Assembly (NCBI RefSeq): GCF_034627025.1
Contig: NZ_CP141048.1
Coordinates: 3,670,001-3,734,000, forward strand
Reading direction: 5' to 3'
DNA: 64,000 nucleotides
Origin: Microvirga lotononidis
GTDB lineage: Bacteria; Pseudomonadota; Alphaproteobacteria; Rhizobiales; Beijerinckiaceae
Both the position numbers and the translations under genes were made by a program. Position 1 is the stretch's first letter. Each line of letters starts with the position of its first letter. Of this stretch, positions 23,062-41,330 are shown one piece after another. The notes beneath the pieces were generated by a model. That model was given only the letters and a program-made list of their open reading frames with translations. It did no database searches and had not been told where the DNA came from.

Positions 23062-23092
23062 AAAGCCCTTCACGGGGGCGGTGAAGGGCTTT
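23062..23092 (-). terminator. Rho-independent terminator (minus strand)
   Basis: Perfect 12-bp stem AAAGCCCTTCAC / GTGAAGGGCTTT with a 7-nt loop. On the minus strand it runs into TTTCTTTTCC. It could end the formyltransferase transcript 260 bp away, or an unannotated minus-strand RNA. Confidence 0.75.
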
Positions 23093-36944: not shown

Positions 36945-38144
36945 TCACGTCCGCAGACGGTTTCGGTAATGCAGCCATCCCTGGGCGATCAGGACGACGA
37001 CGGCCATGGTCGCGGAGAAGGTTGCAAGCGGCCACGCGGTGTCGCCGTGCAGCCAAATGACAGCCAGGGTTCCCCCGATGCTGACGATGAGGCTCTGCAC
37101 GCAGAAATGCAGCGCCACTGCCGACCCGGCGATGTCCCCGAACTTCTCCAGAGCGCCGTTCGCCGTCACCGACACGGCGAAGACGATGCCGACTGCCATG
37201 ACCCACATGGGGACAACGAACGTCCAAAGGGAGGGTGTCCCGAACACCTGCCCGATGCTCAGGAACCCGGCGCCCAGAAGCAGCATCGCCATGCCCCGCG
37301 TGAGACTGCCGGCGTTCCCCCACCGGGCAACGAACCGTTTGGCGAAGCGTGTCGTGATGATCAGCACGACTGCTGCTGTTGCGAAGGCGAAGCTGAATTC
37401 CAGCTCGGAGTAGCCAGCTCCGTCGATCAGGACGCGGGGGGCGGTCGAGAAGAACACGAAGAACGTCCCCATGGCGGCACTGAACCCGAGCGTATAGGTC
37501 CAGAACGCGAGGCTGCGCAGGACGGGCAGGAACGATCGTCGTGACCTGGCGGCCGTCACGGGCCGGGTTTCATGCCATCGCAGCAGAGCATGCAGGGCCG
37601 CGAGAACGGCAAGAACACCCAGTGCCACGAAGATCGAGCGCCATCCAAACCTGTCGGCGAGCATCGCGCCGGCGATCGGTCCCAAGGCAGGCACGAAGGC
37701 CAGCATGGAACTGAACAGGCTGTAGATGACCACGCTTTCCGGTCGGTCGGCATACACGTCCCGGACGGTCGCGAAGGTGGCCACCATCGCTGCCGAGGCT
37801 CCCACCGCTTGCAGGAAGCGGAGGACAACAAAGGGAACGGCAGACGGGGATGCAGCCAGGAAGAATGATGCCGCCGCAAACAGGATCGCGCCGCCGATCA
37901 GAACGGGCCGCCGTCCGATGCCGTCCGAGATCGGCCCGAAGATGATCTGGCCGAGCCCGAGCATCACCATGTACAGGCTCAACGTGAGCTGGACGATGGC
38001 CGGGCTGGTGCCGAGAATGCCCGGCATAGCCGGAACGATGGGGAGATAGATATCCATCGCGAGGGAGGCGAGAATATCGAAGGGTGCCATCAGCAGGAGC
38101 GCTGTCGGCAGGGAATAGGCCCAAACGGGGGGCTTTGGAGACAT
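36945..38144 (-). CDS. CmlA/FloR-type MFS drug exporter
   Basis: 399-residue, 12-helix MFS antiporter. From memory it aligns over its whole length with CmlA/FloR phenicol exporters: WAYSLPTALLLMAPFDILAS, LAMDIYLPIVPAMPGILGTS, FGPISDGIGRRPVLIGG, VGASAAMVATFATVRDVYAD, MGTFFVFFSTAPRVL and NGALEKFGDIAGSAVALHFC. Bcr/CflA proteins are the alternative but match less well. The start at 38144 (MSPKPPVWAYSL) fits the CmlA N-terminus; GAGCGGATG lies just upstream. A nine-codon ORF and a stem-loop lie in its leader. Actual phenicol export is not proven. Confidence 0.85.
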   Translation of the reverse strand: MSPKPPVWAYSLPTALLLMAPFDILASLAMDIYLPIVPAMPGILGTSPAIVQLTLSLYMVMLGLGQIIFGPISDGIGRRPVLIGGAILFAAASFFLAASPSAVPFVVLRFLQAVGASAAMVATFATVRDVYADRPESVVIYSLFSSMLAFVPALGPIAGAMLADRFGWRSIFVALGVLAVLAALHALLRWHETRPVTAARSRRSFLPVLRSLAFWTYTLGFSAAMGTFFVFFSTAPRVLIDGAGYSELEFSFAFATAAVVLIITTRFAKRFVARWGNAGSLTRGMAMLLLGAGFLSIGQVFGTPSLWTFVVPMWVMAVGIVFAVSVTANGALEKFGDIAGSAVALHFCVQSLIVSIGGTLAVIWLHGDTAWPLATFSATMAVVVLIAQGWLHYRNRLRT

Positions 38145-38159
38145 GATGATGCATCCGCT

Positions 38160-38176
38160 CAAATGAGGAACATTTG
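38160..38176 (-). promoter_or_regulatory. Second small stem in the leader of the CmlA-like gene
   Basis: CAAATG TTCCT CATTTG on the minus strand, a 6-bp perfect stem ending immediately before the GAGCGGATG that precedes the exporter start codon. Confidence 0.4.
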
Positions 38177-38221
38177 GCGGCGACCTGCCTGTCAGCATGG
38201 GCTGGAATCGGTTCGACAGAC

Positions 38222-38252
38222 GCCGCAACAACAAGGAAAGCGTTGTTGCGGC
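38222..38252 (-). promoter_or_regulatory. Attenuator-like stem-loop upstream of the CmlA-like gene
   Basis: Perfect 11-bp stem GCCGCAACAAC / GTTGTTGCGGC with a 9-nt loop. It begins on the base right after the stop codon of a nine-codon ORF on the same strand and lies 77 bp before the exporter start. No T tract follows, which argues against a plain terminator. Confidence 0.55.
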
Positions 38253-38282
38253 CTACTTGTCCGACGAGGGCTCGGCTCCCAT
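38253..38282 (-). CDS. Putative nine-residue leader peptide of the CmlA-like gene
   Basis: ATG GGA GCC GAG CCC TCG TCG GAC AAG TAG encodes MGAEPSSDK. GGAG lies seven bases upstream of the ATG. The stop abuts the stem-loop. Known cmlA and cat genes are controlled by drug-stalled ribosomes on nine-codon leaders next to a stem, so the arrangement is suggestive. The SD of the exporter is not inside this stem, so the mechanism would need extra pairing. Confidence 0.45.
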   Translation of the reverse strand: MGAEPSSDK

Positions 38283-38490
38283 GCCACGGCTCCAGGGTCA
38301 TACGAGGTTAGAAGAGGGCTCTTGGATTACCATGTCGGTCCGGAACCGACAAATCCCGCAGGATACCTGAGACGAGGTCACGGAGACCTGGTGGCGTTTG
38401 CTACCGAATGCCGAATGGGTTTGCGGAAAGCGACGCGTCGAGCCGCAGCCCTGAAGTCTTGGACGTGGGCGCAGGCGCCCGTCCGAGGCT
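38283..38490. other. Gap between leader and NepR-like gene
   Basis: The remainder of the gene-free stretch from 38145 to 38490. The exporter promoter should lie here, but no clear boxes were recognised. Confidence 0.4.
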
Positions 38491-38715
38491 TCAAAGCTCC
38501 TCGTTTTCCTCTCGGGCATGGGCTTGCTCCAGGCGCTCCAGCAATTGCTGGATCCGGTCCGGAGCAGGCTCCTTCAGCACGTTCTGATAATTCTGCCGCA
38601 ACTGCCTCCCGAGGTCTTTCAGGACTTCGGACTGGCTGGACGACGGCAGGTTACCGAGACCGACGTTCCAGCCTTCATGGCCCTCGGCGGTATAAGGATG
38701 GTGCCGCTTTGGCAT
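38491..38715 (-). CDS. NepR-like anti-sigma factor
   Basis: 74 residues. The C-terminal half, VLKDLGRQLRQNYQNVLKEP then APDRIQQLLERLEQA, matches the NepR signature (LRxxYxxLvxEPvPDRfxxLLxxLe). NepR binds the extracytoplasmic-function sigma factor EcfG and releases it when PhyR is phosphorylated during the general stress response. The start at 38715 has GGAGGGC upstream; a longer TTG start at 38760 is possible. No phyR or ecfG gene is adjacent, so it is probably a secondary NepR paralogue. Confidence 0.75.
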   Translation of the reverse strand: MPKRHHPYTAEGHEGWNVGLGNLPSSSQSEVLKDLGRQLRQNYQNVLKEPAPDRIQQLLERLEQAHAREENEEL

Positions 38716-38967
38716 CCATGCCCTCCATCTCTGCTCATCCTTGAGCTTGAGAACGGGCAAGTCCGGATTGGGTTTCAGCTAAGTTTATGAAAAAGAATAG
38801 TTTTCCATAAAATTCGAGGAGGAGGCCTGAAATTGGGACTAGCTTCCTCGGATGTCGGATGCGGCCCATGCGTCTTCGACCAAAGGATGCGGCGACCGCC
38901 GGTCGCATTGGATTCCTATGAACACTGCGTCAAAGCTCGACCTTAGTGACAAAGGCGGGCTGGGTTC

Positions 38968-41222: not shown

Positions 41223-41330
41223 TGAATGGGAGCATCGAACCCGGAAACGGGTTCGATGCTTTATGTTTTGGCCCGACGCCTCTTGTGCGCGAAAGCGGTT
41301 CCCACCTTCGCGTTCGATGCCTCACGCGAG
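41223..41330. repeat. Dispersed palindromic repeat, family A, copy 6
   Basis: GAGCATCGAACCCGGAAACGGGTTCGATGCTT, a tight palindrome, then a second unit GCGAAAGCGGTTCCCACCTTCGC and TTCGATGCCTCA. The last bases contain the stop codon of the minus-strand microprotein. Confidence 0.75.

Follow-up and report, generated by a model that had tools for sequence, protein, structure and literature searches.

A short leader in front of the CmlA/FloR-type phenicol exporter gene of Microvirga lotononidis is very likely a translational attenuator of the ermC/cmlA kind, which would control the exporter through a switch between two sets of RNA helices. Three sources lead to this reading, namely conservation among homologous leaders, predicted folding and the parallel with known systems. 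A phenicol- or ribosome-sensing attenuator, as the original prediction had it, is the best-supported interpretation, the peptide, the spacing from stop codon to stem and both stems being conserved in homologous leaders. Attenuators of this kind have been described before; what appears to be new is the reading of the floR branch in four segments, together with the environmental spread of such leaders.

In the mechanism we propose, ribosomes would complete the nine-codon leader ORF when no drug is present, helices 1:2 and 3:4 would form, and 3:4 would conceal the ribosome-binding box of the exporter. With a phenicol bound, a ribosome would stall near codon 8 and cover most of segment 1. Segment 2, freed, would then pair with segment 3, the lower part of 3:4 would break, and this opening would expose the start region of the exporter. 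The comparison establishes the anatomy of the leader, its conservation, the complementarity of the three helices and a partial match to cmlA; that the leader is transcribed, that phenicols stall ribosomes on it, that the helices switch in cells and how the mobile leaders descended are points that we infer. A specific prediction, open to test, of how the floR leader reaches the ribosome site follows from the four-segment reading. This reading also suggests that a phenicol exporter under regulation, together with its sensor, exists in environmental bacteria. A leader of the same kind precedes the floR gene of many disease-causing bacteria.

The elements of the locus are given in Table 1, in coordinates of the window, that is, the whole stretch of 64,000 nt that was analysed. 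The exporter matched the Pfam MFS_1 domain. It scored 636.7 bits with the model of the CmlA/FloR family (NCBIfam NF033134), above the curated cut-off of 450, and 591 bits with the exception model for FloR proper (NF000219), below the cut-off of 700, and because of this second score the models class it as a relative of FloR, not floR itself. Its ATG begins at 38144 on the minus strand, and its start, ATGTCTCCAAAG, is common to close relatives. A dispersed repeat was rejected as an explanation of the leader, a DNA search of the whole M. lotononidis genome having found one copy only. Upstream of the exporter and on the same strand lies a gene for a NepR-like anti-sigma factor (38491-38760, minus strand; Pfam PF18557, 40.6 bits); such a neighbour was found in none of the 24 relative loci searched for it. 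The candidate promoter boxes are the best-scoring ones by a simple score and occur at a similar distance in many relatives; a stricter sigma-70 scan at the locus found no promoter. From these boxes, transcription would start upstream of the leader ORF. Rfam families gave no match at the gathering score in the window.

Table 1. Features of the exporter gene and of its leader, in the order of transcription (window coordinates)
Feature	Position	Strand	Sequence or detail	Basis
Promoter-like boxes	38326..38352	-	TTGTCG (38352-38347) and GGTAAT (38331-38326)	candidate, inferred
Shine-Dalgarno-like box and leader start codon	38280..38293	-	GGAG (38293-38290) and ATG (38282-38280)	sequence
Leader ORF	38253..38282	-	MGAEPSSDK-TAG, nine codons	sequence and leader comparison
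Segment 1, 5' arm of stem 1:2, right after the leader stop	38242..38252	-	GCCGCAACAAC	sequence and alignment
3' arm of stem 1:2, start of segment 2	38222..38232	-	GTTGTTGCGGC	sequence and alignment
Part of segment 2 predicted to pair with segment 3 when the switch is ON	38215..38226	-	GCGGCGTCTGTC	alignment and duplexes
Segment 3, partner of segment 2	38177..38189	-	GGCAGGTCGCCGC	alignment and duplexes
5' arm of stem 3:4	38171..38180	-	CCGCCAAATG	alignment
Segment 4, 3' arm of stem 3:4	38155..38165	-	CATTTGAGCGG, holds the GAGCGG box	sequence and alignment
CmlA/FloR-type phenicol exporter gene, major facilitator superfamily	36945..38144	-	399 aa

The original prediction described a nine-codon ORF, MGAEPSSDK, with GGAG upstream and ending exactly where an 11-bp perfect stem begins. 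This arrangement was recovered, with its coordinates on the minus strand. The GGAG box, 7 nt ahead of the leader ATG (38282), is retained in the Microvirga leaders displayed, and the stop codon immediately adjoins segment 1 in 57 of the 59 distinct leaders. Peptides were compared on 72 pooled leaders, cmlA included, which yielded 52 distinct ORFs. Codon 7 encodes Ser in 25 ORFs and Ala in the other 27, hence one of the two residues in 52/52, and codon 8 encodes Asp in 50 of the 52. The Ser and Asp codons themselves differ synonymously among the leader ORFs. The predicted stall would place Asp8 in the P site, Ser7 in penultimate position and Lys9 in the A site; judging by the general footprint of a ribosome, about seven nt of segment 1 would then be covered. 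According to the part of PMC8987054 that was available, ribosome arrest by chloramphenicol and linezolid is most effective with Ala as the penultimate residue of the nascent chain, followed by Ser or Thr, and the Ser/Ala residue at codon 7 fits this published rule for chloramphenicol. Some leaders depart from the common form. In L025:2865-3006 and L036:2864-3006 a Tyr codon replaces the leader stop and the ORF continues into the stem, the Ala/Ser-Asp-Lys residues keeping the same distance from the stem despite the lost stop. One leader of the 59, L030, lacks an ATG in the usual place and offers only a GTG in frame.

Stem 1:2 is made of perfect 11-bp arms separated by a 9-nt loop. As had been noted originally, it does not hold the ribosome site of the exporter, whose ATG is 77 nt downstream. 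When perfect inverted repeats of at least 11 bp with loops of 3-15 nt were counted over the whole window, 5 were found, against a mean of 0.4 in 10 Markov-1 resamplings. Taken alone, the 11-bp stem is therefore unusual and constitutes modest evidence; the decisive evidence is its conservation. A chance hairpin was rejected on the conservation of the stem in FloR-type loci and in close relatives. Two more perfect hairpins, with arms of 13 bp and 12 bp, are present in the window at 41231-41260 and 23062-23092.

In the alignment of homologous leaders, the partners of stem 1:2 are paired in 99.2% of 637 alignment cells, a level reached by none of 500 shuffles. Pairing was still 73-84% when partners were slid by three columns, because the arms are repetitive. 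Only 3 cells are changed on both sides; the resulting covariation score of 0.046 was reached by 0/500 shuffles, compared with scores of 0.040 and 0.044 for slides of three columns. Besides these few two-sided changes, the stem contains G-U pairs, and the distance between the starts of its two arms ranges from 15 to 22 nt across the 59 leaders. Of what had been expected from related genomes, the conservation of the ORF and of the stem was thus found, while compensatory changes were few.

A second stem of 6 bp had been placed just before the ribosome site of the exporter. This stem is present, but it actually extends over about 10 bp with one bulge, including CAAATG/CATTTG (38176-38171 / 38165-38160), and the Shine-Dalgarno-like GAGCGG box of the exporter (38160-38155, 10 nt ahead of its ATG) is located inside its 3' arm. 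Helices 2:3 and 3:4 are mutually exclusive because both use CCGC, and 2:3 excludes 1:2 because GCGGC is shared. The two alternative sets, 1:2 with 3:4 on one side and 2:3 on the other, are complementary in 90.9-99.2% of alignment cells. Because stem 1 does not contain the ribosome site and lies 77 bp away, the original prediction had expected a mechanism other than the classical one. This was wrong: stem 2 holds the ribosome site, and pairing is possible between its 5' arm and the 3' arm of stem 1, in line with the ermC/cmlA design. We dropped the caveat on distance because 3:4 includes the GAGCGG box and 2:3 competes with 3:4.

The partners of 3:4 are paired in 90.9% of 573 cells and those of 2:3 in 94.1% of 696 cells, levels that 0/500 shuffles reached in either case. 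With the partners of any of the three helices shifted by one or two columns, 27-39% of cells remained paired, and a shift of three columns, for 3:4 and 2:3, left 31-51%. For 3:4, 19 cells are changed on both sides, a number reached by 1 of 500 shuffles; a slide of +1 gave 25 two-sided cells, yet a lower score (0.152 versus 0.179). Covariation is absent from 2:3, its score being reached by 175 of 500 shuffles. For this helix we also computed duplexes segment-wise in 71 of the 72 leaders, L136 being left out. Mean duplex energy was -19.8 kcal/mol, against -10.5 kcal/mol with shuffled segment 3, and it lay more than 2 standard deviations below the shuffled mean in 64/71 leaders; native partners did better than the median swapped partner in 51/71. 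The ends of L039 and L043 were corrected in the 59-leader alignment only, and are uncorrected in the spacing, folding and duplex analyses. RNAalifold, run without guidance, recovered stem 1 together with four of the 2:3 pairs; it did not find 3:4. The proposed helices, 2:3 above all, are supported mainly by kept complementarity and by the parallel with cmlA, covariation being weak.

The predicted switch was then followed by ensemble folding of the 59 leaders on the exporter's strand, counting pairs between the named segments. The intact RNA formed a median of 11.0 pairs within 1:2 and 0.0 within 2:3; between the GAGCGG box and segment 3 the median was 4.9 pairs. Hiding 7 nt of segment 1 raised 2:3 to 11.1 pairs and lowered the pairs of the box to 1.3; hiding 11 nt gave 10.4 and 1.5. 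More than 1.5 box pairs were lost in 46 (7 nt) or 47 (11 nt) of the 59 leaders. The 12 leaders that did not lose as much with 11 nt hidden are L019, L024, L028, L032, L035, L089, L091, L092 and four floR2-like ones, L047, L049, L050 and L052, which represent 18 of 83 loci. The mean unpaired probability of the GAGCGG box increased only from 0.19 to 0.27 on hiding segment 1 (up by more than 0.2 in 8/59 leaders, down by more than 0.2 in 1/59), the freed box tending to re-pair with neighbouring bases in the folds. That of the exporter start codon went from 0.38 to 0.69. In these models the helix switch, including the extent to which the box would be released, is plausible.

We next consider how widely the leader is distributed. 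The exporter gene was present in 10 of the 61 genomes searched, that of M. lotononidis included, and a contig search with the exporter provided the best 80 of 173 confirmed loci. Among the loci compared, the closest named relatives of the exporter are from Microvirga. After leaving out seven loci that repeated others, the FloR-type set comprised 85 loci, of which 83 have the 3' arm of stem 1 at most 200 nt upstream of the gene. Many of these 83 are near-identical mobile floR copies, so that the 59 distinct leaders they contain are a better count. The two loci that lack the arm, L084 and L090, are floR loci of Flavobacterium and Chryseobacterium; they are without the leader and have other, A/T-rich DNA directly before the start codon. 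In comparisons with ten close relatives, identity was 90-100% for stem 1 and 89-97% for the stretch following it, against 60-78% for the promoter-like stretch and 45-63% for the DNA beyond -220, counted from the exporter start. The leader therefore travels with the gene and not with the neighbourhood.

Genomes of the genus and of the order were searched with Infernal under stricter filters, so that weaker relatives upstream of other genes may have escaped. Strong matches to the model were found in 11 of 48 Microvirga genomes, with 13 matches at E <1e-15, 12 of them followed by a FloR exporter. Of the 347 order genomes, 12 gave such matches (12 matches at E 2.4e-14 or better, all 12 followed by FloR). 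Among strong matches in these 347 order and 48 genus genomes, none preceded a gene other than CmlA/FloR. Seven order genomes and one genus genome had weak matches only (E 0.001-0.009), with no adjacent FloR, which look like chance. The distant exporters L098 and L099, as well as the floR loci L084 and L090, gave no match to the model at E up to 1. The thirteenth of the Microvirga matches is a second copy of the leader in a Microvirga relative, G446 (L113:1500-1790); unrelated DNA resembling an insertion breaks this copy off downstream of stem 1, and no exporter was seen in the 1790 bases examined. On a wider scale, the M. lotononidis genome is alone over the family cut-off among 385 genomes of the class, and the exporter gene is therefore accessory. 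In E. coli, 949 out of 5426 complete genomes contain such a leader, matched over 80% or more of the query and nearly always with 90-95% identity.

Other explanations of these observations were weighed. Oxazolidinones, other peptidyl-transferase drugs or starvation for a leader codon might be equally effective, in which case the leader would be a general sensor of ribosome stalling and phenicols would not be special. The RNA part requires only a stalled ribosome near segment 1, and linezolid follows the same penultimate Ala/Ser rule in the available part of PMC8987054. Such generality seems to us somewhat unlikely, given that the leader was seen, among strong matches and with strict filters, only with CmlA/FloR exporters. 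The leader might also have been kept by ancestry and have no current regulatory role in this Microvirga, a view that agrees with the accessory nature of the gene (a strong leader match in 11 of 48 genus genomes, and a sole genome over the cut-off in the class). It is made very improbable by the contrast between the identity of stem 1 and that of the flanks beyond -220, and by the Ser/Ala codon and the pairing, which are retained in leaders of many genera.

Two further alternatives give the stem a role other than in the translational attenuator that we favour. Protection of mRNA by stalled ribosomes is known for erm genes, and the stem might be a messenger-stabilising hairpin, or else a transcription terminator, control being exerted by mRNA decay or transcriptional attenuation. 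Published floR induction, in the available parts of PMC5890775 and PMC8256890, is indeed at the mRNA level, and slight for one variant; translational control alone gives no direct explanation of it. Nevertheless, the conservation extends to segments 3 and 4, which a simple terminator or stabiliser would not need, and a terminator was rejected since no terminator-like site was found within 38100-38500, so that we hold this alternative to be improbable. Long perfect palindromes near promoters are often operators, and the 11-bp inverted repeat might accordingly be a DNA site for a repressor in place of an RNA stem. An operator is extremely improbable here: the arms adjoin a conserved coding ORF, the stem has G-U pairs and a few two-sided changes, and the variable spacing between arm starts, on which the operator was rejected, would alter the phasing of a DNA site and not that of an RNA stem.

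As an attenuator, the leader can be compared with several known systems. That of ermC has a four-segment layout. There too, when a drug stalls the ribosome on a leader peptide, the RNA adopts an alternative structure and a concealed ribosome site becomes exposed (PMC5418344, in the part available), but the peptide and the drug are unrelated, and the gene is a macrolide-induced methylase gene. The catA and fexA genes are chloramphenicol-inducible with an attenuator ahead of the resistance gene; the available part of PMC5890775 sets them apart by its description, their attenuator overlapping the ribosome site directly.

A close case is that of mobile floR, for which PMC5890775 and PMC8256890, in their available parts, describe a putative attenuator with a 9-aa leader (6-9 aa) and an 11-bp or variant inverted repeat upstream of the gene. 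The mobile floR leaders align with the Microvirga leader and match its model. The original prediction had assigned the switch to an environmental alphaproteobacterium, but the leader is not confined to environmental bacteria, as it also precedes mobile floR (described in part in the same two papers). In the parts available, floR mRNA rises with florfenicol or chloramphenicol (PMC5890775, PMC8256890), an 8-fold rise is cited for plasmid floR in both papers, and with phenicols floR-T2 mRNA rises strongly and floR-T1 mRNA only slightly (PMC8256890). The same parts state that the floR stem does not overlap the ribosome site (PMC5890775, 2018), and that its role in induction is unclear for lack of such an overlap (PMC8256890, 2021). 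What these passages describe is stem 1 only, to which segments 3 and 4, helix 2:3 and the chromosomal relatives are added here. In the open literature, subscription papers and figures aside, neither segments 3 and 4 of a floR leader nor its chromosomal relatives were seen to be described.

Stokes and Hall are said to have described, in 1991, a translational attenuator for cmlA, in an integron cassette. A review (PMC8876359, in the part available) gives cmlA a 9-aa leader and two alternate stem-loop pairs. The covariance model built on the 59 leaders matches the leaders of cmlA1 and cmlA5 (L093, L094) with 53.3 bits and an E-value of 6.4e-14. This match covers 86 nt, from the ORF to slightly past stem 1, and ends before segment 3, so that common descent of the whole cmlA and floR leaders can be called no more than likely. 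In cmlA, too, a nine-codon leader (MSTSKNADK-TAA in L093 and L094) has its stop adjoining the stem, GCCGCAGCAACC, an 11-bp pairing is available between the 3' arm of stem 1 and a later segment, and the second stem includes the ribosome site (AAGGAG). The differences are an exporter only 47% identical, AAGGAG in the second stem where Microvirga has GAGCGG, a shorter leader, and a location in an integron cassette, whereas the Microvirga exporter is chromosomal. A natural hybrid exists in Comamonas testosteroni NFYY023 (L049:2840-3006), where a cmlA-type MSTSKNADK leader and its adjoining upstream DNA stand before segments and a gene of the floR2 type.

Finally, a tree of 66 exporters was built with a midpoint root, eight rows being labelled mobile floR by judgement. 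These eight, with four unlabelled rows, form a fully supported clade of 12, which is nested in a supported clade of 20 that includes Rhizobium exporters; cmlA is on a long branch. In this tree mobile floR lies inside a clade of Rhizobiales-type exporters, and the mobile gene appears to descend from relatives of the environmental bacteria that hold such exporters. We give roughly even chances to the broader proposal that a single ancient RNA switch gave rise to the attenuators of both clinical floR and cmlA. This switch would have arisen alongside the chromosomal exporters of soil-dwelling bacteria, Rhizobiales for the most part, long before the use of phenicols as drugs, and would have been mobilised with the gene, the four-segment design solving the puzzle of the distance in floR.
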